Shown here: piece by piece, positions 35,738-61,193 of the stretch
How the letters are laid out: each line of letters starts with the position of its first letter
Numbering within the stretch: position 1 is the first letter of the stretch
Origin: Hyalangium gracile
GTDB lineage: Bacteria; Myxococcota; Myxococcia; Myxococcales; Myxococcaceae
Direction of reading: 5' to 3'
DNA: 64,000 bases
NCBI RefSeq assembly: GCF_020103725.1
Contig: NZ_JAHXBG010000014.1
Span: 62,001-126,000, forward strand
The notes under the pieces: generated by a model
What the model was told of the DNA's origin: nothing
Database searches by the model: none
What the model saw: the letters and a program-made list of their open reading frames with translations, nothing else
Translations under genes and position numbers: made by a program

Positions 35738-38272
35738 GTGTCGGATTTCATGCGTGCTTCCCGCTGCTGTGGGTGGCACGCCGGGGATAGGACGGGCGGG
35801 GTGGGGTTGGATCGATATCTGTGGCGCGACCTTGGAGCGCGCCCTCTCTTCTTTCCTGCATTAGGCGTGATGCTGGGCGCGGCCGCGCACGCCGAGGGAA
35901 CCGTCCCTCTCAGCGGGAAATTCCTGATCATCGCAGCTGTCTTGAGTGCGGCCGTGCTGGCGCTCGCTCGCCTGCCTGGTGCCCATCTGGCGCTGCTGCT
36001 CTCGCTGGGGCTGACGGGTGCCGGGCTCGCGGGGCTCGAGGCTCGGGTGGATGTACCGCCGGAGTTGGTCCGCGGCGGCACCGCCGTGCTCGAGGGCGAA
36101 GTCGAGAGAGTGGATCATTTCGAGGATTCCACGCGCCTGCAGCTCGCCGTGGCGCGGGCCGGGCTGAAAGCGGAATCCACGGTGGAGGCGCGCTTCCGCG
36201 CCAGTGTCTACCTGCGCGGTTCGCCGGAGCTGCTCCTGCCCGGACAACGCGTCCGGGTGGAGGCGAAGCTCCAACCCCTGGAGCCTCCCAGCAATCCGGG
36301 GGAGAAGAACTTCACGGCCATCCGCAAGCGGCAGGCGTTTGCCTTCTCCGGCAGCATCACGGCGGGGCGGGTGCTGGTGCTGTCCTCCGCGTCCGGGTGG
36401 CAGCGGTACATCGCGCGAACCCAGGCGGAGCTCTCGGCGGCGGTGCGGCGCGTGGCTCCCTCGGAGGATGCCGCGGCGTTCTTCCTCACGCTCGCCGCCG
36501 GGCAGCGTGCCGCGCTCGATGACGAGCTGGAGGAGGCGTTCTCTCGCAGCGGGCTGGCGCATGTCCTGAGCGTGAGCGGGCTGCACGTGGCGGCGCTGGC
36601 GCTGATGACGCTGGCGCTGCTGCGGCGGGTGCTCGTCCGCGGCGGTGGGCGCTTTCGCGGGCTGGAGGCACGCCGGGTGGCGGCTCCCGCGTCCGTGCCC
36701 TTCGTCTGGGCCTATGTCGTCTTCACGGGCAACCAGGCTCCGGCGGTGCGCTCGGCGGTGATGGCCACCGTGGTGCTCCTGGGTCTGGCGCTGTGGCGGC
36801 GAGCCGATGGCCTCAACAGCCTGTCCACCGCCGCCCTGGTGCTCGTCATCTGGAGCCCCTCCAGCGTCGTGGACCTGTCGCTGCAGCTCTCCTTCCTCGC
36901 CGTGCTGAGCCTCCTGCTGCTCACGCCCGCGTTCCGGGCGGCCCTCCCCATCGCACCGCCGGATCCCCAGGAGGAGCGGCTGCTGATGCGCTGGCTCGGC
37001 AAGGGACGGGAGACCATCCTCGAAACGCTCTGCGCGAGCGCTGCCGTGACACTGGCCAGTGTGCCCCTCGTCGCCAGCTCCTTCGGGCGCGCGAGCCTCG
37101 CGGGCTTCGTGTCCAACATCGTGTGCCTGCCCCTGTGCGGGCTGCTCACGGGCTTCGCCGCGGGCGGCGCGGCGCTCTTCACGGTCTCTCCGCTCCTGGC
37201 CACTCCGGTGCTTTGGGGCGGTGCCTGGGTATCCGAGCTGCTGCTGATCCTCACCCGCTTCTTCGCCGCGGTGCCGTTCGCCACGGTGAAGCTGCCGCTC
37301 TTCGGGCCCTGGCTCACGGCGCTGTTTGCCATCGGCCTCGCGACCTGGGGGCTCGGCGTCGGACGCTGGCGCCTCGGTGGGCTGCTCGCGCCCCTGGCCC
37401 TGGTGGCGGCCATGCTGGTGCCGGTGTTCGCGCCCCAGGCGCCCCTGCGCATCACCTTCCTCTCCGTGGGGCAGGGGGACTCCGTGGTCCTCAGTTCGCG
37501 AGGCCATCACGCGCTCGTGGACGGCGGCGGTGCACCCGGCGGCGCCGATACGGGCACCCGCTACGTCCTTCCCTTCCTGAACCACGAGCACATCGATCGG
37601 CTGGAGCTCGCCGTCCTGTCCCATCCCCACCCGGACCATGCGCTGGGGATGATCTCCACGCTGGGCCAGGTCCCCACGCAGCGACTGTGGCTGCCCGCGG
37701 GCACCACGGAGGGAGACCTGTCCCGGAAGCTCATCGCCGCGGCGGCGGGTGCGAAGGTCGAGGAGGTCCAGGTGGGCTGGCCCACCTTCACGCTGGGCGA
37801 GGCCACCCTGGAGGTGCTGGGCCCTCCCCTCCCCGAGGATCGCGAGCTGCTCGAGGGCGTGAACGATCGCAGCATCGTGGTGCTCGTGCGCCATGGCGCC
37901 GTCACCGTGTTGCTCACCGGAGACGTGGAGGAGGCCGGTGAGGAGATGCTGCTCGATCGCCTGGGGCCCGTGACGGTGCTCAAGGCGCCCCACCATGGCT
38001 CTCGAACGTCCTCCACCGAGCCTTTCCTGGAGCGGACCCGTCCCCGATACGTCGTCTTCTGCGTGGGGCGCCGCAACCGGTTCGGCTTTCCCCATCCGGA
38101 GATCTTCGAGCGCTACCGGGAGCGCGGCACGGAGTGCTTCCGCACGGATCTGGACGGCGCCGTCACCCTTGAGAGTGATGGCCGCGACGTCCGCCTGCAC
38201 GGCTACCTGCCGCGTGAGGAGGGGCCTTCTGAACCCACCCTTGCCCCTGTCGCCCGTCATCCCCAGCCTTGA
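35738..38272 (+). CDS. comEC: ComEC/Rec2 DNA-uptake channel protein
   Basis: An inner-membrane protein of up to 844 residues that forms the channel for single-stranded DNA during transformation. N-terminal helices lead into a DUF4131 region (about 60-200). The Competence domain (about 235-520) carries the family signature GLAHVLSVSGLHVAALALM and further helices. A C-terminal metallo-beta-lactamase domain (about 570-820) contains SVGQGDSVVL, LSHPHPDHALGM and LKAPHHGSRTSS, consistent with an intact nuclease-type metal site. The start is uncertain: GTG at 35738, ATG at 35750 or a GTG near 35801 are possible, none with a clear ribosome site. Divergent from cdnL. Confidence 0.93.
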   Translation: MSDFMRASRCCGWHAGDRTGGVGLDRYLWRDLGARPLFFPALGVMLGAAAHAEGTVPLSGKFLIIAAVLSAAVLALARLPGAHLALLLSLGLTGAGLAGLEARVDVPPELVRGGTAVLEGEVERVDHFEDSTRLQLAVARAGLKAESTVEARFRASVYLRGSPELLLPGQRVRVEAKLQPLEPPSNPGEKNFTAIRKRQAFAFSGSITAGRVLVLSSASGWQRYIARTQAELSAAVRRVAPSEDAAAFFLTLAAGQRAALDDELEEAFSRSGLAHVLSVSGLHVAALALMTLALLRRVLVRGGGRFRGLEARRVAAPASVPFVWAYVVFTGNQAPAVRSAVMATVVLLGLALWRRADGLNSLSTAALVLVIWSPSSVVDLSLQLSFLAVLSLLLLTPAFRAALPIAPPDPQEERLLMRWLGKGRETILETLCASAAVTLASVPLVASSFGRASLAGFVSNIVCLPLCGLLTGFAAGGAALFTVSPLLATPVLWGGAWVSELLLILTRFFAAVPFATVKLPLFGPWLTALFAIGLATWGLGVGRWRLGGLLAPLALVAAMLVPVFAPQAPLRITFLSVGQGDSVVLSSRGHHALVDGGGAPGGADTGTRYVLPFLNHEHIDRLELAVLSHPHPDHALGMISTLGQVPTQRLWLPAGTTEGDLSRKLIAAAAGAKVEEVQVGWPTFTLGEATLEVLGPPLPEDRELLEGVNDRSIVVLVRHGAVTVLLTGDVEEAGEEMLLDRLGPVTVLKAPHHGSRTSSTEPFLERTRPRYVVFCVGRRNRFGFPHPEIFERYRERGTECFRTDLDGAVTLESDGRDVRLHGYLPREEGPSEPTLAPVARHPQP

Positions 38273-44035: not shown

Positions 44036-47000
44036 TTAGCACGCACCGGGGGAGGCGTGACAGTGTTCCGCGAAGCCACAATGCAGTGCCTGGCAGGTTG
44101 GCCTCTCCCGCCCCGGCCACTCCCTCCGCAGATCGCCCTGGACGAGGGCTCGCACGGCCTCTCCCAGCCGCCCGGTGGGCTCCTCCAGCCCTCCGGGAAC
44201 AGTGAGGAACTCCGGCTCCGGGGCGGGCTCACCGAGGAAGACGATTCCTACCCGTACGGTCACGCCCTCGCGCACCAGGCGCCTGGCCGCGAGCCCGTGG
44301 ACCACCAGCTCATGCGCGGCGGAGGCCACGCCCAGGGGGTGACGCTTCCCCGGCCTCCAGGCCACTACCCAGGCCTCCCCTTCGGGCGTCTCCCACAACA
44401 GGTCCAGCTCTCCGCTGACCGCCGTGCGACCCTTGCCTGCCCCCGCGGGCAGCTCCAGCACGAAGGACAGCTCCCGGTGGATGTTCGCGGCCGGACTCGA
44501 GGCCAGCCCGCGGGCGAACGCAGAGGCGAGGAAGCGCTCCACCATCCCCAGGGCCTCCTCCATGCCCTCTTCGTCGGGCATCCGCCCCATGTTCCGCAGC
44601 AGCTTCTCCAGGTGCGCGCGCCGCTCCGTCGCGGGGGCCTCCGCCACGCGCAGATCCACATCCCGGAGCAGCAGCGGGACGAGCTGCGCGGAGCCTCGGG
44701 TCTCCAGCCAGGACTCGGGCTCCACCCAGGGCGGCATGGCCCGCGCGGGCAGCTCCCACGGCCGAGGGCCGCACAGCCCGAGCTGGTGCACGTAGCGGTA
44801 GCGCCGGGGGCACGCCATGAAGTCCTGGAGCGCGGCGGCCGAGGCGACGGCTTCCTCCGGCTCGGGCAGGAACTCCCGGCCGCGGACACGCTGCACGGCG
44901 GCCTCCACGCGCTCCTCCGCCTCCACGAGCTCCTCCGCGCTCGGAGGCATCGGATCCGCGGGCGGAGGGAACGCCTCCACGTCCACGTCCAGCACCCGCT
45001 CCCGGAGCGCGGCGTCCACGCCCAGCCGCTCGTCGAGCATGTGCCACCAGGAGTCCGAGGCCCCCCGCTCCGCCGAGCCGGAGAGGATGAGCAGATCCCT
45101 GGCTCGGGTGAGCGCCACATAGAGGAGGCGGCGGTACTCGGCGAACTCCCGGGACTTGAGCTCCTCCTTCACCTGCTCGAAGCGCCGCGAGCGGAAGTCC
45201 TCCAGCCGGTCCGGGAGCCAGGGCCGCAGCGCGAGCCCGTGGGTGCGCTCGAAGTGGGCGCGAGCGCTCGTGGAGCGGCGCTTGCCTCCGAGCGCGGGCA
45301 CCACCACCACCGGCCACTCGAGCCCCTTGGCGCGGTGGATGGTGAGGATCTGCACCGCGCGAGGATCTCCCGCGTCCAGCAGGTCCGCCTGGGCCTCGGT
45401 GGGATCCGAGTCGGCCAGCATCCGCAGCTCCCGAGCGAACGCCGTGCACCCGCCCGTCCCGCGCTCATCGCGCCGGCCCGCGAGCGCCAGCAGCTTGTCG
45501 ATGTTGGCGCTGGCCTGCTCCGCGTAGGGCGTGCCCGCCATGGCCTCGCGATAGCCCGTCACCTCCAGCGCCACCTGGAGCAAGGCGCGCACGCCGAGCC
45601 GATCCCGCTCGCGCTTCAACGAAGGCAGTGCCGCGAGGAAGCGCTCCAGCCGGACCCGCTCCCGGGGAGGAAGCTCGCAGGCGGCCAGATCCTGCCGCAC
45701 CACCCCCGCCAGCGTCAGCCCGTGCTTCTCGTCGTGCCGGGCCAGCCGGAAGAGCGACGCGTCCGACAGGCCCACCAGCGGCGAGCGCAGCACGGCGGTC
45801 AAGGCCAGCGTGTCCTCCGAGTCCGACAGCAGGGCCAGCAGCGAGGCCAGATCCAGCACCTCCTGCGCGCCGTAGAAGCCGCGCCCGCGCAGCACCCGGT
45901 GGGGAACGCCGTGACGGATGAGCGCCTGCCGATACACCTCGAGGTGGGTGAAGGTTCGCAGGAGGATGGCCACCTCCCCACCCCGAGCCGGGCGCAGGCG
46001 CTGTCCATCCTCGTCCATCACGCTGGGCGCCGCGCCCGGAGCGAGCATCACCCGCAGGCGCCGGGCCACCGCATCCGCATCCTTGTTGCGCGCCTCCGCC
46101 GTGGACTCCGCCTCCCCCAGGACCAGCCGCTCCACCGCGGCCTCCTCCGAGACGGAGCGCCGCACCGGCGAGAGATCATCCTCCGCCGGGACGTACTCCA
46201 CCTCGTAGGGCCGAGGCGGCTGGCTCGTCACCAGCACGCCCGCGAAGGCGCGGTTGAAGAAGTCCAGCAGCGCCGGCACCGAGCGGCGGTTGTGGCGGAG
46301 GAAGTCCTTCGCTCCGCCCTCGGACTCGAGCTTGTTCGCCAGCAGCGTGAAGACGGAGACGTCCGCGCCGCGGAACTCGTAGATGGACTGCTTCCGGTCA
46401 CCCACCGCGCACAGGAACGCGGGCTCCAGCGGGAGCACGGCCCGGAGCTCCTCGTCCGGACGCACCGTCCGGGGGCCGCCCTCGCGCCGCTCCGCGAGCA
46501 GGAGCACCAGCTCGAGCTGCAGGCGGTTGGTGTCCTGGAACTCGTCCACGAGCAGCGCGCCCATGCGCTCCTGCACCTGGCGGCGGAAGCCCGGGTGGTC
46601 GCGCAGCAGATCCCTCGCCTTCACCAGCAGGGCCGTGAAGTCGAAGACGTTGCGGCGGGCGAACTCGGTCTCGTGGCGCGCCTCCACCCGGCCGAGCAGC
46701 TCGCGGAAGGTGGCCTCGAAGGGCGCGGTCCTCCACGCGGCGTACCCATCCTCCAGCCGCAGCACCGAGCCGTCGCTCTTGCCGAACACCAGCCAGTACA
46801 GCGAGCGGATGGGCCCGGCGGCGCCCTTGCTCAGCCTCGCGAAGTTGCGGCCGTCCGCCAGGAACGCGGCCTTGAGCGAGGGCAGCCGATCCGCCTCGAA
46901 GAGGTTCTCCGGCGTCATGCCCTCCAGCGCCCGCTCGCAGGCGGCGCGCAGGCGGCTCCACTCGCCCTTGGCATCCAGCTCGCGTGCCGCCGCGCAGTGC

Positions 47001-47683
47001 CGCAGCCCCTCCTGGAAGAGCGCCTCCAGCTCCGCGCGGGCCTCCTCCGGATTCGAGAGGGCGGCGGAGGCCGCGCGCAGGCCTTCCTCGCGCAGTTTCG
47101 CGTAGACCTGCCGCAGCGAGGCCACGAGGCCATCCGAGAACCCCGTGCCCGAGAACGTCAGCTCCTGGCACAGCTCGCGGACATTCGCATCCTCGGCCTC
47201 CAGGGCATCCAGCACCACGCGCTCGCACACATCCAGCACCAGCCCGAGCGCCTCCAGCTCATCGAGCACCTCGAAGGCGGGATCGATGCCCAGCCCTGGT
47301 GGGGCGCGACGCAGGAGCTGGCCACAGAGCGAGTGGAAGGTGCCCACCGTGGCCGCGCCCAGCTCCTCGCGCAGCGCGCGCCACATGTCCTGCGAGGGGA
47401 ACGGCCGCCCGAGCCGCTCCAGCGAGGCGCGCAGCTCCGGCTCCTGGGCCTCGCCCTGCGCCAGCGCATCGAGACGGGAGCGCGTCCGCGCGCGCATCTC
47501 CGCGGCGGCCTTGTCCGTGAACGTGAGCATGCACAGCCGCGAGGGCTTGAGCGGCGCGGCCGCCTCGCGCGCTCCCGCGAACAGGTGCAGCACCATCGTC
47601 ACCAGGCTGTACGTCTTGCCCGCTCCGGCGCCCGCCATGAGCGCGAGGTTGCGCTCCAGCGCCAGGGGCGACACCGCACTCAT
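44036..47683 (-). CDS. addA: AddA-like UvrD helicase with degenerate nuclease site
   Basis: A 1215-residue superfamily 1A helicase subunit of an AddAB-type complex that unwinds and resects broken DNA for RecA. Walker A is GAGAGKT (18-24). Helicase motifs II (LLVDEFQDTNR), III (CAVGDRKQSIYEFRG), V (ILTIHRAKGLEW) and VI (RLLYVALTRARDLL) are intact. The C-terminal PD-(D/E)XK-like domain keeps the first acid in GELDLLW (D1094), but the D-x-K position reads A1108-W1109-R1110 (VVAWRPGK), so nuclease activity is probably lost. The C-terminus has a Cys-rich stretch CQALHCGFAEHCH. It overlaps addB by 4 bp. The ATG at 47683 is chosen because the Walker A then sits at the normal distance. Confidence 0.88.
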   Translation of the reverse strand: MSAVSPLALERNLALMAGAGAGKTYSLVTMVLHLFAGAREAAAPLKPSRLCMLTFTDKAAAEMRARTRSRLDALAQGEAQEPELRASLERLGRPFPSQDMWRALREELGAATVGTFHSLCGQLLRRAPPGLGIDPAFEVLDELEALGLVLDVCERVVLDALEAEDANVRELCQELTFSGTGFSDGLVASLRQVYAKLREEGLRAASAALSNPEEARAELEALFQEGLRHCAAARELDAKGEWSRLRAACERALEGMTPENLFEADRLPSLKAAFLADGRNFARLSKGAAGPIRSLYWLVFGKSDGSVLRLEDGYAAWRTAPFEATFRELLGRVEARHETEFARRNVFDFTALLVKARDLLRDHPGFRRQVQERMGALLVDEFQDTNRLQLELVLLLAERREGGPRTVRPDEELRAVLPLEPAFLCAVGDRKQSIYEFRGADVSVFTLLANKLESEGGAKDFLRHNRRSVPALLDFFNRAFAGVLVTSQPPRPYEVEYVPAEDDLSPVRRSVSEEAAVERLVLGEAESTAEARNKDADAVARRLRVMLAPGAAPSVMDEDGQRLRPARGGEVAILLRTFTHLEVYRQALIRHGVPHRVLRGRGFYGAQEVLDLASLLALLSDSEDTLALTAVLRSPLVGLSDASLFRLARHDEKHGLTLAGVVRQDLAACELPPRERVRLERFLAALPSLKRERDRLGVRALLQVALEVTGYREAMAGTPYAEQASANIDKLLALAGRRDERGTGGCTAFARELRMLADSDPTEAQADLLDAGDPRAVQILTIHRAKGLEWPVVVVPALGGKRRSTSARAHFERTHGLALRPWLPDRLEDFRSRRFEQVKEELKSREFAEYRRLLYVALTRARDLLILSGSAERGASDSWWHMLDERLGVDAALRERVLDVDVEAFPPPADPMPPSAEELVEAEERVEAAVQRVRGREFLPEPEEAVASAAALQDFMACPRRYRYVHQLGLCGPRPWELPARAMPPWVEPESWLETRGSAQLVPLLLRDVDLRVAEAPATERRAHLEKLLRNMGRMPDEEGMEEALGMVERFLASAFARGLASSPAANIHRELSFVLELPAGAGKGRTAVSGELDLLWETPEGEAWVVAWRPGKRHPLGVASAAHELVVHGLAARRLVREGVTVRVGIVFLGEPAPEPEFLTVPGGLEEPTGRLGEAVRALVQGDLRREWPGRERPTCQALHCGFAEHCHASPGAC

Positions 47684-50600
47684 GCGATCTCCTCCACCAC
47701 CCTCCGCTCCGAGATGCGGCACACCGCGCGATAGCCGCACCCGCCACAGTCCTTCGGACGCATGCCGAACCTCCCCTCACGCGTCGCCTGCACCAGCCCC
47801 TCCACCGCGTTGGCCAGGTTGAGCCCGCCCTCCTCCGCCAGCTTCGAGCGCACCACCGGATCCGTGGACAACATGCCCTCGACCTCGGCCTCGGACAGCA
47901 CCTCCGTCAGGCTGATCGTCGTCCCCGTGCGCAGCGAGAACCAGGCCGCGTTCCGCGCCTCCTTGTGGCCGCTGGCGCGCGCCGCGTACAGGTAGAGCGG
48001 GAGCTGGAAGTCCGAGGACAGCAGCCGCTCACGCAGCGCCCGCTTGTCCAGCCGGCCCGACTTGTAGTCGATGACGCCCACGTCACCCGCGCCCTTGTCC
48101 AGCCGGTCGATCTTCCCCTCGAAGTAGATGGCCTCCTTGCCCGCGTAGAGGAACACGTCCTGCCATGGATCCTCGTCCGCGCCGGGGCCGAACTTCAGCT
48201 CGAAGCCCTCGGGCATGTACTGCTCGAAGGGCAGGCCGCGCCGCTCGTCCGCCAGGATGCGCCTCACCATGGCGCGCGCGCGCTCCTTCGCCAGCTGCCA
48301 GAGCACCGGGTGCCCCACGTGGTAGCGCTCCTCGAAGGAGTGCACCGCCTCATCGAGCGCCTTCTTCAGCAGCTCCTCGGGGATCTCCTCCAGCCCCTTG
48401 CCCAGCAGCCCCTGCTCTCGGAGCTTCTTGAAGACCTCCTCCACCACGCGGTGCCAGAACGTCCCGCGTCCCCGCGCGTCGAACTCCTCGCCTGGAGACT
48501 CCGGCTCGGCCACCTTCAGCCCGTACGTGAGGAAGCCCTGGAAGCCGCAGTTGCCGAAGCGCGCCAGCGCCGAGGCCGACAGCGGCTTCGTGATGTCGAA
48601 GCGGAACGTCTCTCGCAACGCCTCCCGCAGCCCCGGACCATCCACCTCGCCCGTGTAGGGCCCCACTCGGGACGACGGGTTGCTGAAGAAGTGCAGGCGC
48701 TCGTACTCCACGTGCGCCAGCTCCTTCGCGGCGGAGAACCACTCCTCGCTCTCGAAGCGCCGCCGGAGAATCGCTCCCGCCACATCCGGCTCGGTGACGC
48801 GCAGCCGCGCGGGCGCCATCGTCTCCAGCGCCACCCGCTGCCGGAGCTCGGCCTCCGTGAGCACGTCGTCCAGCGGAGGCACCGCCATCAGCGAGCGCGC
48901 CTCCCACGTCATGCCCGTGAGCCGCCGCACCTCCTCCAGGAACGCGGAGGGCACCTGCTCCTGCCCACCCACGCCCGCCACCGCGTAGGACAGGCTCACC
49001 TGCCGCTCGGCCGCCACGAGCGCGCTCGCGAAGAGCAGCCGGTCCTCGGTGAGCCGCCACGGAGACCGGTCCTCGAACTCGCCACCGGTGAGGCGGAAGG
49101 CCTCCCGCCCCAGGCGCTTGTTGAGCTCGGCGCGGTCGGCATCTCCGAGCAGCGGGTTCGGCTCCTCGTGGCCAGGCAAGCGCCCCTCCGTCATGCCCGC
49201 GAGGAAGAGGTAGTCGAACGTCCTGCCGGGCAGCTCGCGGACATCGAGCACCTCCACGGCGCCCGAGTCCGGCCCACGGGCCGGCAGGTACGTGTCCCGC
49301 ATCGCGTCCGCCAGCCAGCGTCCGAAGATGCGGCGCGACATCCTCGGGCCTCCCCCTACCCTCCTCAACGCCCGCTCCAGCTCTCCCACCCGGAGTCGCA
49401 GCGCGTGACGCGCGGCATCGTCCCGGGCCCGAGCCTCCAGCGCATGCGCGCTCAGCGAGCCCTCCACGCGAGGCTCCAGCGGACCTTCCGTGTCCTGCAG
49501 CCCGAGCTGCTTCACCACCCGCCACCAGGCCCCGAGCAGCTCCAACGCGCTCCCCGACTCGGGGATGCGGCGGCACCACTCCATCAGCCTCAGGCACCGC
49601 TCGCGCAGCACGCGCACGCCATGGGCATGCTCGTCCTTGGCCACCACCATCCGCCGCGCCAGCGCCTCCAGCCGCACGTCGTACGCGCCGCGCCCCTTCT
49701 GGGCCCCGAGCCGATCGTCCCGGATAGCGGCCAGCGTGAAGAGCGTCGCCGGTGCCTCCGGAGCCCCTCGGGACAGCGAGGGCGCGTAGCGGCTGGCCAC
49801 CACCTCCGCTACCCGCCGGGCCGGGAAGGCATCCTCGACGAGCAGCGGCAAATCGAGCGCCAGCCGGACCGGCCCCGTCAGCGCGAGCGGCTCGCCCCAC
49901 GGCAGGCGCACCGGCACCCCCAGCTCCTCGAGCGCCTCGGCCAGCCACCGCGCCTCCGCCCCGGGCTCGCGCCAGGCGACGGCGATGCGCCCCGGAGAGA
50001 CACCCTCCGTCACGAGCCGGCGCACGTCCCGGGCCAGCTGCCGGGCCTCGTCCTGGGCCGTGCCCACGCTCCACATCCGCAGCGTGCCCGCGGCCGTGGC
50101 GGACAGGGCCCCGCGCTTCACCTGCGGCGAGAAGAGGTGCCGCCCCAGCTCGGACAGGGGGCGCTTCTCGAAGGTGAGGTCCGCCTTGAAGAGGTCCACG
50201 TGGCCCACGGTCTCACCGCGGCTCTCGAAGGCCCGGAAGAGCGCCGCCAGCGCCGCGTCCGCCACCGGGGAGCCCCCCACCGGCGTCTCCATGCGCAGGG
50301 AGATCCGCCGCGCCTCGCACACCATCGCCAGCGCGAGGAGCAGGCCCAGCCCGGAGGGGCGGACGTCATACACCCCGTGGATGACGATGGACTGCACGTC
50401 CTCCCAGGCCGCCGGCCACTGCCCGCGCCCGAGCGCCTCACGCGAGCCGCGCAGCACATCCTCGCGATCCGCGAGCCCCAGCTCGGCCATGCGGCGCTCA
50501 TACGTGTCGTACAGGCCCGCGAGCACGCGCGCCTTGACCCGACGCTCTGGCGGGAGCGACTCGGAGGCATCCTGCAGTTCACGCGGGGTGAGCCGCCCGG

Positions 50601-50898
50601 CCTTCATGTCGAGCACGAGCTCCAGGGCGGCGCGCGCGAAGGCCGGCTCGCTGACGAAGTCTCCGAAGGGCGTGTCCGCCAGGCCCTGCGCCAGCGAGGC
50701 CATGAGGACGCGGCAGGTGGGGGCCGAGCAGGGGCGTCGATTGAGCTCGCCTGCTCCACCCAGGGCGTTGACGAACTCGTCCCACGTCAGCCAACCCGAG
50801 CCCAGCACGAGGCCGCGCTTTTCCCGTGCGGCGCGCAGCACTTGCTGGCGACGCTCTGCATCGGGGAAGACCTGGAGGGTGCGGCCGGGACGCGACAT
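47680..50898 (-). CDS. addB: AddB-like subunit with PD-(D/E)XK nuclease and Fe-S cysteines
   Basis: A 1072-residue partner of AddA. The N-terminal helicase-like part lacks a Walker A box. The C-terminal nuclease domain has the intact active site EGKIDRLDKGAGDVGVIDYKSGRL. Cysteines for a 4Fe-4S cluster are visible: FGNCGFQGFL before the domain and DCGGCGYRAVCRI at the end (C-x2-C-x5-C). In studied AddAB, AddB cuts the 5' strand and scans for recombination hotspots. The ATG at 50898 is chosen because the longer frame to 51279 is antisense to the PAP2 gene. It is divergent from that gene and its last 4 bp overlap addA. Confidence 0.88.
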   Translation of the reverse strand: MSRPGRTLQVFPDAERRQQVLRAAREKRGLVLGSGWLTWDEFVNALGGAGELNRRPCSAPTCRVLMASLAQGLADTPFGDFVSEPAFARAALELVLDMKAGRLTPRELQDASESLPPERRVKARVLAGLYDTYERRMAELGLADREDVLRGSREALGRGQWPAAWEDVQSIVIHGVYDVRPSGLGLLLALAMVCEARRISLRMETPVGGSPVADAALAALFRAFESRGETVGHVDLFKADLTFEKRPLSELGRHLFSPQVKRGALSATAAGTLRMWSVGTAQDEARQLARDVRRLVTEGVSPGRIAVAWREPGAEARWLAEALEELGVPVRLPWGEPLALTGPVRLALDLPLLVEDAFPARRVAEVVASRYAPSLSRGAPEAPATLFTLAAIRDDRLGAQKGRGAYDVRLEALARRMVVAKDEHAHGVRVLRERCLRLMEWCRRIPESGSALELLGAWWRVVKQLGLQDTEGPLEPRVEGSLSAHALEARARDDAARHALRLRVGELERALRRVGGGPRMSRRIFGRWLADAMRDTYLPARGPDSGAVEVLDVRELPGRTFDYLFLAGMTEGRLPGHEEPNPLLGDADRAELNKRLGREAFRLTGGEFEDRSPWRLTEDRLLFASALVAAERQVSLSYAVAGVGGQEQVPSAFLEEVRRLTGMTWEARSLMAVPPLDDVLTEAELRQRVALETMAPARLRVTEPDVAGAILRRRFESEEWFSAAKELAHVEYERLHFFSNPSSRVGPYTGEVDGPGLREALRETFRFDITKPLSASALARFGNCGFQGFLTYGLKVAEPESPGEEFDARGRGTFWHRVVEEVFKKLREQGLLGKGLEEIPEELLKKALDEAVHSFEERYHVGHPVLWQLAKERARAMVRRILADERRGLPFEQYMPEGFELKFGPGADEDPWQDVFLYAGKEAIYFEGKIDRLDKGAGDVGVIDYKSGRLDKRALRERLLSSDFQLPLYLYAARASGHKEARNAAWFSLRTGTTISLTEVLSEAEVEGMLSTDPVVRSKLAEEGGLNLANAVEGLVQATREGRFGMRPKDCGGCGYRAVCRISERRVVEEIA

Positions 50899-57521: not shown

Positions 57522-61193
<3,672 letters not shown>

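Follow-up and report, generated by a model that had tools for sequence, protein, structure and literature searches.

The AddAB-type enzyme encoded in a 64,000-nucleotide stretch of the Hyalangium gracile genome (the window; contig NZ_JAHXBG010000014.1, positions 62,001 to 126,000 of the forward strand) combines an AddA subunit whose carboxyl-terminal nuclease site has lost most of its catalytic residues with an AddB subunit whose predicted nuclease is complete. The loss is clade-wide in H. gracile and its close relatives. We consider it probable that this is a break-resection enzyme of the AddAB type in which AddA, a pseudo-nuclease, unwinds the DNA and AddB cuts the 5' strand only, sparing the 3' strand. 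An earlier note on this DNA, made from the letters alone, had read GELD followed by Ala-Trp-Arg at the D-x-K step of AddA, and VIDYKSGR with four candidate iron–sulfur (Fe-S) cysteines in AddB; the open reading frames (ORFs) and the alignment gave the same residues.

Nuclease sites of AddA and AddB

The PD-(D/E)XK nuclease at the AddA carboxyl terminus lacks the motif-I His, the Asp and Lys of D-x-K, and the Gln and Tyr of QxxxY (Table 1), so that the loss goes beyond the single D-x-K change noted earlier. The motif names are those that we take to apply to the AddA and AddB nucleases, and residue numbers refer to the 1,215-residue AddA, as in the earlier note. We aligned 63 sequences of the main clade with 44 intact relatives, excluding G061 and three genomes of a second lineage from the 67 with the loss. 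Among columns occupied by one residue in all 44 intact AddA, the clade retained the motif-I Gly in 3 of 63 sequences, the motif-I His in 1 and the Glu of REL in 2, the window's AddA being one of these two; the Lys of D-x-K remained in 33, and its Asp, the Gln and the Tyr in none. The Arg of REL was present in all 63, and motif-II D1094 was the one catalytic-motif residue kept throughout the main lost clade. A loose regular expression flagged a His near motif I in G075, G078, G079 and G080, a reading overruled by the column count.

Counted by region, the clade has lost 10 of the 26 conserved positions of the nuclease domain, against 1 of 87 helicase positions and none of the 30 in AddB (Fisher's p = 8e-7 for nuclease versus helicase, a guide only, the rows being related and kinship uncorrected). 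Seven of the ten are catalytic (Gly and His of motif I, Glu of REL, Asp and Lys of motif III, Gln and Tyr), and the positions kept in the domain include the four cysteines, R1070, G1091 and D1094. Judged from these columns, the erosion is aimed at the catalytic site.

Two technical explanations were ruled out. Misalignment of D-x-K is excluded by the sister genomes G069 and G015, whose LDYK and VDYK at this place make the column unambiguous and leave no true D-x-K elsewhere in AddA. A frameshift or sequencing error is excluded by the occurrence of the loss in 64 genomes of the clade and three of the second lineage, nearly all with open frames; in G061, addA is split into two pieces.

A four-Cys pattern marks the iron-staple nucleases (PMC7430649, PMC3466216; here and below, PMC numbers refer to excerpts of the cited papers). 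The earlier note had assigned such cysteines to AddB, which agrees with our reading, but they are not confined to it: AddA, too, has a predicted pattern of the iron-staple type, with one Cys ahead of motif I and the other three at the carboxyl terminus, and its cysteines are predicted to bind an Fe-S cluster. Because all four are present in every one of the 44 intact rows, the iron-staple form of AddA probably goes back to the ancestor of the order. In both lineages of loss, the pattern has outlasted the catalytic site.

AddB carries the motif VGVIDYKSGR (D944 and K946), H816, D931 and cysteines 784, 1051, 1054 and 1060, and its motifs and four cysteines make it, as a prediction, a complete iron-staple nuclease of the RecB family. 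Its PDDEXK_1 (PF12705) match was strong (E = 3e-37, above the cut-off), and a UvrD_C match was weak (E = 0.099, below the cut-off). D-x-K was kept in all 105 genomes with a readable AddB. The earlier placement of a single active nuclease on the nonhelicase subunit likewise stands as a prediction: AddB alone is predicted to be active in 65 of the 67 genomes with the AddA loss, AddB being unreadable in the other two.

AddA itself shows the motifs of an SF1A helicase, with GAGAGKT and DEFQD conserved, and matched UvrD_N (E = 4e-48), UvrD_C (E = 1e-22) and, weakly, PDDEXK_1 (E = 9e-7). It fell far below the cut-offs of the NCBIfam AddA equivalogs (TIGR02784, 220.7 bits against 860.75; TIGR02785, 216.9 against 707.65) and is therefore classed as a variant of the AddAB type that stands outside those equivalogs. 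The two genes lie on the minus strand, addB followed by addA, and share 4 bp in an ATGA stop/start overlap. The longest addA ORF (44036-47740) encodes 1,234 residues if read from the GTG at 47740, and its numbering runs 19 higher; the ATG at 47683 is the likely start, preferred because it overlaps the addB stop.

Table 1. Features of the addAB locus, in window coordinates
Feature	Coordinates	Strand	Evidence
addA, 1,215 aa; SF1A helicase and carboxyl-terminal pseudo-nuclease domain (predicted)	44036..47683	-	ORF, UvrD_N and UvrD_C Pfam matches, weak PF12705, ATGA overlap
addB, 1,072 aa from ATG; Chi-subunit homologue, predicted intact iron-staple nuclease	47680..50898	-	PF12705 E 3e-37, H816, D931, D944-x-K946, Q/Y motif, four Cys
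AddA nuclease-like domain, 280 residues, modelled alone without stop codon	44036..44878	-	AlphaFold2 (AF2) mean pLDDT 90.6, pTM 0.88; AdnA best match
AddA C958, first predicted Fe-S ligand	44810..44812	-	63/63 clade, 44/44 intact
AddA P1003, at the place of the lost motif-I His	44675..44677	-	His 1/63 clade, 44/44 intact
AddA D1094, kept motif-II Asp (end of GELD)	44402..44404	-	63/63 clade, 44/44 intact
AddA A1108-W1109-R1110, degenerate D-x-K	44354..44362	-	Asp 0/63 clade, 44/44 intact
AddA E1125...H1129, QxxxY motif, both residues lost	44297..44311	-	Gln 0/63, Tyr 0/63 clade; 44/44 intact
AddA C1197, C1202, C1208, last three predicted Fe-S ligands	44060..44095	-	58/58, 58/58, 58/59 clade rows with data; 44/44 each intact
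AddB C784, first iron-staple Cys (predicted)	48547..48549	-	Sequence reading
AddB D944-Y-K946, intact D-x-K	48061..48069	-	Kept in 105/105 genomes with AddB data
AddB C1051, C1054, C1060, other iron-staple Cys (predicted)	47719..47748	-	Sequence reading

Distribution, selection and fold

We searched 145 genomes of the order and found 114 to match AddA at E 1e-60; after exclusion of three partial sequences (G086, G116 and G119) and addition of G026, 112 were read, all but one (G048) being readable at motif III. Of these 111 genomes, 67 have lost D-x-K and 44 retain it. In a tree of the AddA helicase part, built with a quick method from 59 rows (L109 and L110 left out), 29 rows with the loss formed one starred clade and two others, G070 and G101, sat apart, the starred branches forcing two changes; the intact G069 and G015 grouped with the main lost clade. 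The long branches L096 and L098 meet in this tree, which makes it less certain than the stars suggest that the second loss belongs apart. This second, apparently independent loss (L096 in G070, L098 in G101 and L222 in G012) has all four cysteines kept, and the AddA of G070 is without even the motif-II Asp. G012, which shows the same D-x-K loss as the other two, lies outside the tree.

For a wider background, we took the best 80 of 475 AddA-like relatives and set aside 16 short UvrD-like proteins and 3 without a motif VI match. Of the 61 remaining proteins with a long carboxyl terminus, which come from many phyla, 58 contained D-x-K by simple motif match. The three exceptions were Corallococcus interemptor (L124), which belongs to the clade with the AddA loss, and two metagenome-assembled genomes, one of Poribacteria (N-x-K) and one of Bacteroidetes. 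A second AddA/RecB-like match (E = 1e-47 to 1e-52) occurred beside the window type in G007:C546, G010:C37, G011:C935 and G019:C218, and was the only type in G021 (L028) and G028 (L029); the nuclease motif of this type was read in L028 and L029, leaving out L030, and E/D-x-K was kept in both. The next AddA-like match in the window's own genome was weak (E = 1.3e-10).

We computed the ratio of nonsynonymous to synonymous substitution rates (dN/dS) by the Nei–Gojobori method for pairs of 80–98.5% identity and dS < 1.5, which gave 260 pairs from part of the lost clade's rows and 6 pairs of intact relatives. In the lost clade, dN/dS was 0.165 for the AddA helicase and 0.246 for the dead domain, a ratio of 1.46; the six intact pairs gave 0.148 and 0.211, a ratio of 1.44. 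With dN/dS well below 1 and a kept core, decay of the domain as a pseudogene was ruled out.

Structure prediction, proposed in the earlier note as a check, gave a model of the nuclease-like domain with the scores in Table 1. The model is a confident one, and in it the dead domain keeps the RecB-family fold, as compared with PDB structures by Foldseek and VIA-align. The best VIA-align match was the AdnA nuclease domain (Z = 14.4; 234 residues aligned, root mean square deviation 4.6), followed by an Argonaute-associated Cas4-family protein (13.6), AddB (13.3), AddA (13.2), Dna2 (11.7) and RecB (10.8). Several residues mostly absent from intact relatives are conserved across the clade: W976, W992 and R1114 in 63 of 63 rows, W1097 in 62, as well as D1010 and E1103; at W976 and W992, 13 and 21 of the 44 intact rows align. 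W976, W992, R1114 and W1097 fit a repurposed surface, but shared descent alone could also yield them.

Predicted strand specificity and its alternatives

In Bacillus subtilis AddAB, cutting of the 3'-terminated strand falls to the nuclease of AddA and that of the 5'-terminated strand to the nuclease of AddB (PMC4824097). Each strand has an exit channel of its own, lined by one of the two nucleases (PMC4027173), and Chi keeps the 3' strand off the AddA nuclease (PMC4824097, PMC4027173). Since AddA cuts the 3' strand there, loss of its nuclease predicts sparing of that strand and a constant product like the one formed after Chi. The earlier note had expected a changed polarity of resection; loss of 3'-strand cutting is the better prediction, and the B. 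subtilis strand roles imply no reversal.

Under this scheme, AddA would still translocate 3' to 5' and unwind the duplex, and of the two strands only the 5'-terminated one would be degraded, by the iron-staple nuclease of AddB, on emerging from its channel. The other strand, 3'-terminated, would run past the dead AddA domain uncut and with no need of Chi. The enzyme would thus produce 3' single-stranded tails from the outset and be held permanently in a state that B. subtilis AddAB attains only once it has met Chi. The pseudo-nuclease would form the wall or the exit of the channel for the 3' strand and act as a structural clamp, and it may be a docking site as well; such a role would explain the retention of its cysteines and core. 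Cutting is probably confined to one of the two DNA strands; the residue loss and the kept core are read from the alignment, and we infer by homology that the spared strand is the 3' one. In the iron-staple enzyme Bad, changing the motif-III Asp to Ala abolished cutting and affected the ATPase little, and Cys mutants were labile (PMC7430649); the mutants show the same split as the evolution of AddA here. A bolder version, which we advance tentatively and at somewhat less than even confidence, is that of a naturally Chi-independent AddAB fixed in its recombination-promoting state, with a dead Fe-S nuclease recruited as a noncutting element that forms a channel or a docking site for the 3' strand, a mirror of RecBCD reached twice in myxobacteria.

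Several points weigh against the proposed sparing of the 3' strand. Judged by the NCBIfam scores, the H. gracile AddAB is distant from the enzymes that have been studied, and the AddA nuclease-like domain may have another job. The AddB nuclease had a higher dN/dS in the clade than in the six intact pairs (0.227 versus 0.158), which hints at weaker constraint, contrary to the expectation for a sole cutter, six pairs being too few. The amino-terminal region of AddB, which should hold the Chi-reading domain, seems free of relaxed selection (residues 20–770; 0.154 in the clade and 0.163 in the six intact pairs), and since it is as constrained as in relatives, Chi recognition may still be of importance in the lost clade.

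The RecB nuclease of RecBCD cuts both strands, and AddB could likewise also cut the 3' strand. In that case AddB would be the sole cutter for both strands, both would be destroyed until Chi, and only the number of active sites would differ. The continued selection on the AddB amino-terminal region favors such an enzyme, as does the precedent of RecBCD running with one nuclease domain (PMC5443536), but the separate channels of B. subtilis AddAB (PMC4027173) and the absence of changes at the 30 conserved AddB positions argue against it, and we regard it as unlikely.

The kept D1094 together with a Lys or Arg at the D-x-K Lys position in 59 of 63 rows is odd for a fully freed site, and it also counts against AddA being a pseudo-nuclease. 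An AddA nuclease still active through a rebuilt site, by a migrated Lys or by acidic residues around D1094, would account for both features; residue migration is documented in the PD-(D/E)XK superfamily (PMC1185551), and D1010, E1103 and R1114 are among the clade-wide residues mostly absent from intact relatives. Set against this, the motif-I His, the Asp of D-x-K, the Gln and the Tyr are all gone together, and the Asp column has become a mixture of Ala, Leu, Val, Ser and Thr with no single new residue, as expected of a functionless site. A rebuilt site thus seems very improbable.

A backup by a second AddAB or a RecBCD was ruled out for the window's genome (G000). A search for recC gave no TIGR01450 match there at E 0.001 (the control matched 2 of 14 genomes, Escherichia coli and B. 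subtilis, and exceeded the cut-off in 1), and the PDDEXK_1 matches, the one nuclease family searched, comprised AddB, AddA and one stand-alone protein only. The latter, a RecB-family nuclease of 333 residues (G000:C44:42867-43865; L273:1471-2472), has an intact VVDWK and the four-Cys pattern and matched Cas4 weakly (TIGR00372, E = 4e-5, below the cut-off). Its gene occurs in 65 of the 67 genomes with the AddA loss and, among intact genomes, in 5 of the 22 that belong to the same family (Fisher's p = 5e-12, kinship uncorrected), a count suggestive of redundancy, in which the AddA loss would be tolerated because this protein or other exonucleases do the 3'-strand work. However, 13 of the 22 intact genomes from other families carry the gene as well, G053 and G054 lack it, and the tree offers only two independent contrasts (sign test, median p = 0.5); we hold such redundancy to be the least probable of the explanations weighed here.

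Around addAB, the scanned neighbors are genes for an adenylosuccinate synthetase and a TPR protein downstream of addA and a PAP2 protein upstream on the opposite strand, with no nuclease among them. In 111 of 119 loci, the stretch with AddA also held an AddB match; the remaining 8 stretches hit a contig end. Farther out, the window encodes a ComEC-type competence protein with Competence, DUF4131 and metallo-beta-lactamase domains (35738-38272, about 6 kb from addA) and a large hybrid two-component sensor with a Reg_prop propeller and Y_Y_Y, HisKA, HATPase and receiver domains (57522-61193).

Relation to known enzymes

B. subtilis AddA is, to our knowledge, without an iron staple. With phmmer, its chain 3u44_A aligned to the window's AddA over the helicase only. 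The B. subtilis enzyme (PDB 3u44 and 4cej) has the same single AddA-type motor and an AddB partner with a four-Cys nuclease of the RecB family; the H. gracile AddA differs in having the four-Cys pattern and in lacking the catalytic residues of its nuclease. DNA2 performs helicase-linked resection of the 5' strand, which makes it the nearest counterpart in function to the predicted reaction. As far as the excerpts describe them, DNA2, the bacterial Bad and Cas4 are four-Cys iron-staple nucleases like the pattern seen here in AddB and AddA, and DNA2 and Bad differ in carrying nuclease and motor on one chain. AdnA and AdnB of mycobacteria each carry a motor and a nuclease. AdnAB (PDB 9np6 and 6ppr), which supplied the best structural match of the AddA pseudo-nuclease, differs from the present enzyme, in which a single motor sits on one subunit and the one nuclease predicted to be live on the other.

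Two precedents for a silent partner come from the excerpted literature. In RecBCD, the inactivated nuclease domain of RecC forms a hoop for a DNA strand (Rigden 2005, PMC1185551); there, likewise, one of two paired RecB-family nuclease domains is dead with its fold kept, but as a mirror image, RecC on the AddB side being dead and RecB on the AddA side cutting. In Wolbachia of isopods, a premature stop removed the whole AddA nuclease domain in six endosymbiont strains (PMC4224334), giving a natural AddA without nuclease function as here, whereas purifying selection maintains the myxobacterial domain, in genomes of 4.4–13.8 Mb. Among the matches listed in the literature searched, seen as excerpts and not covering the main survey of AddAB distribution, none described a conserved pseudo-nuclease AddA. 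The H. gracile system is a variant form of AddAB, shared by a whole clade and with a single predicted nuclease; it does not amount to a new kind of system.

The models of AddAB in three of the cited papers have two nucleases, with Chi keeping the 3' strand from the AddA nuclease (PMC4824097, PMC4027173, PMC5443536). A large natural clade without the AddA nuclease asks what purpose Chi has when nothing is left to switch off, and what role the domain has beyond cutting. Set beside the dead domain of RecC, this clade suggests that either member of the nuclease pair has been silenced in the course of evolution. Phage defence in myxobacteria could also be affected, as the degradation of both strands at foreign DNA ends might be impaired.

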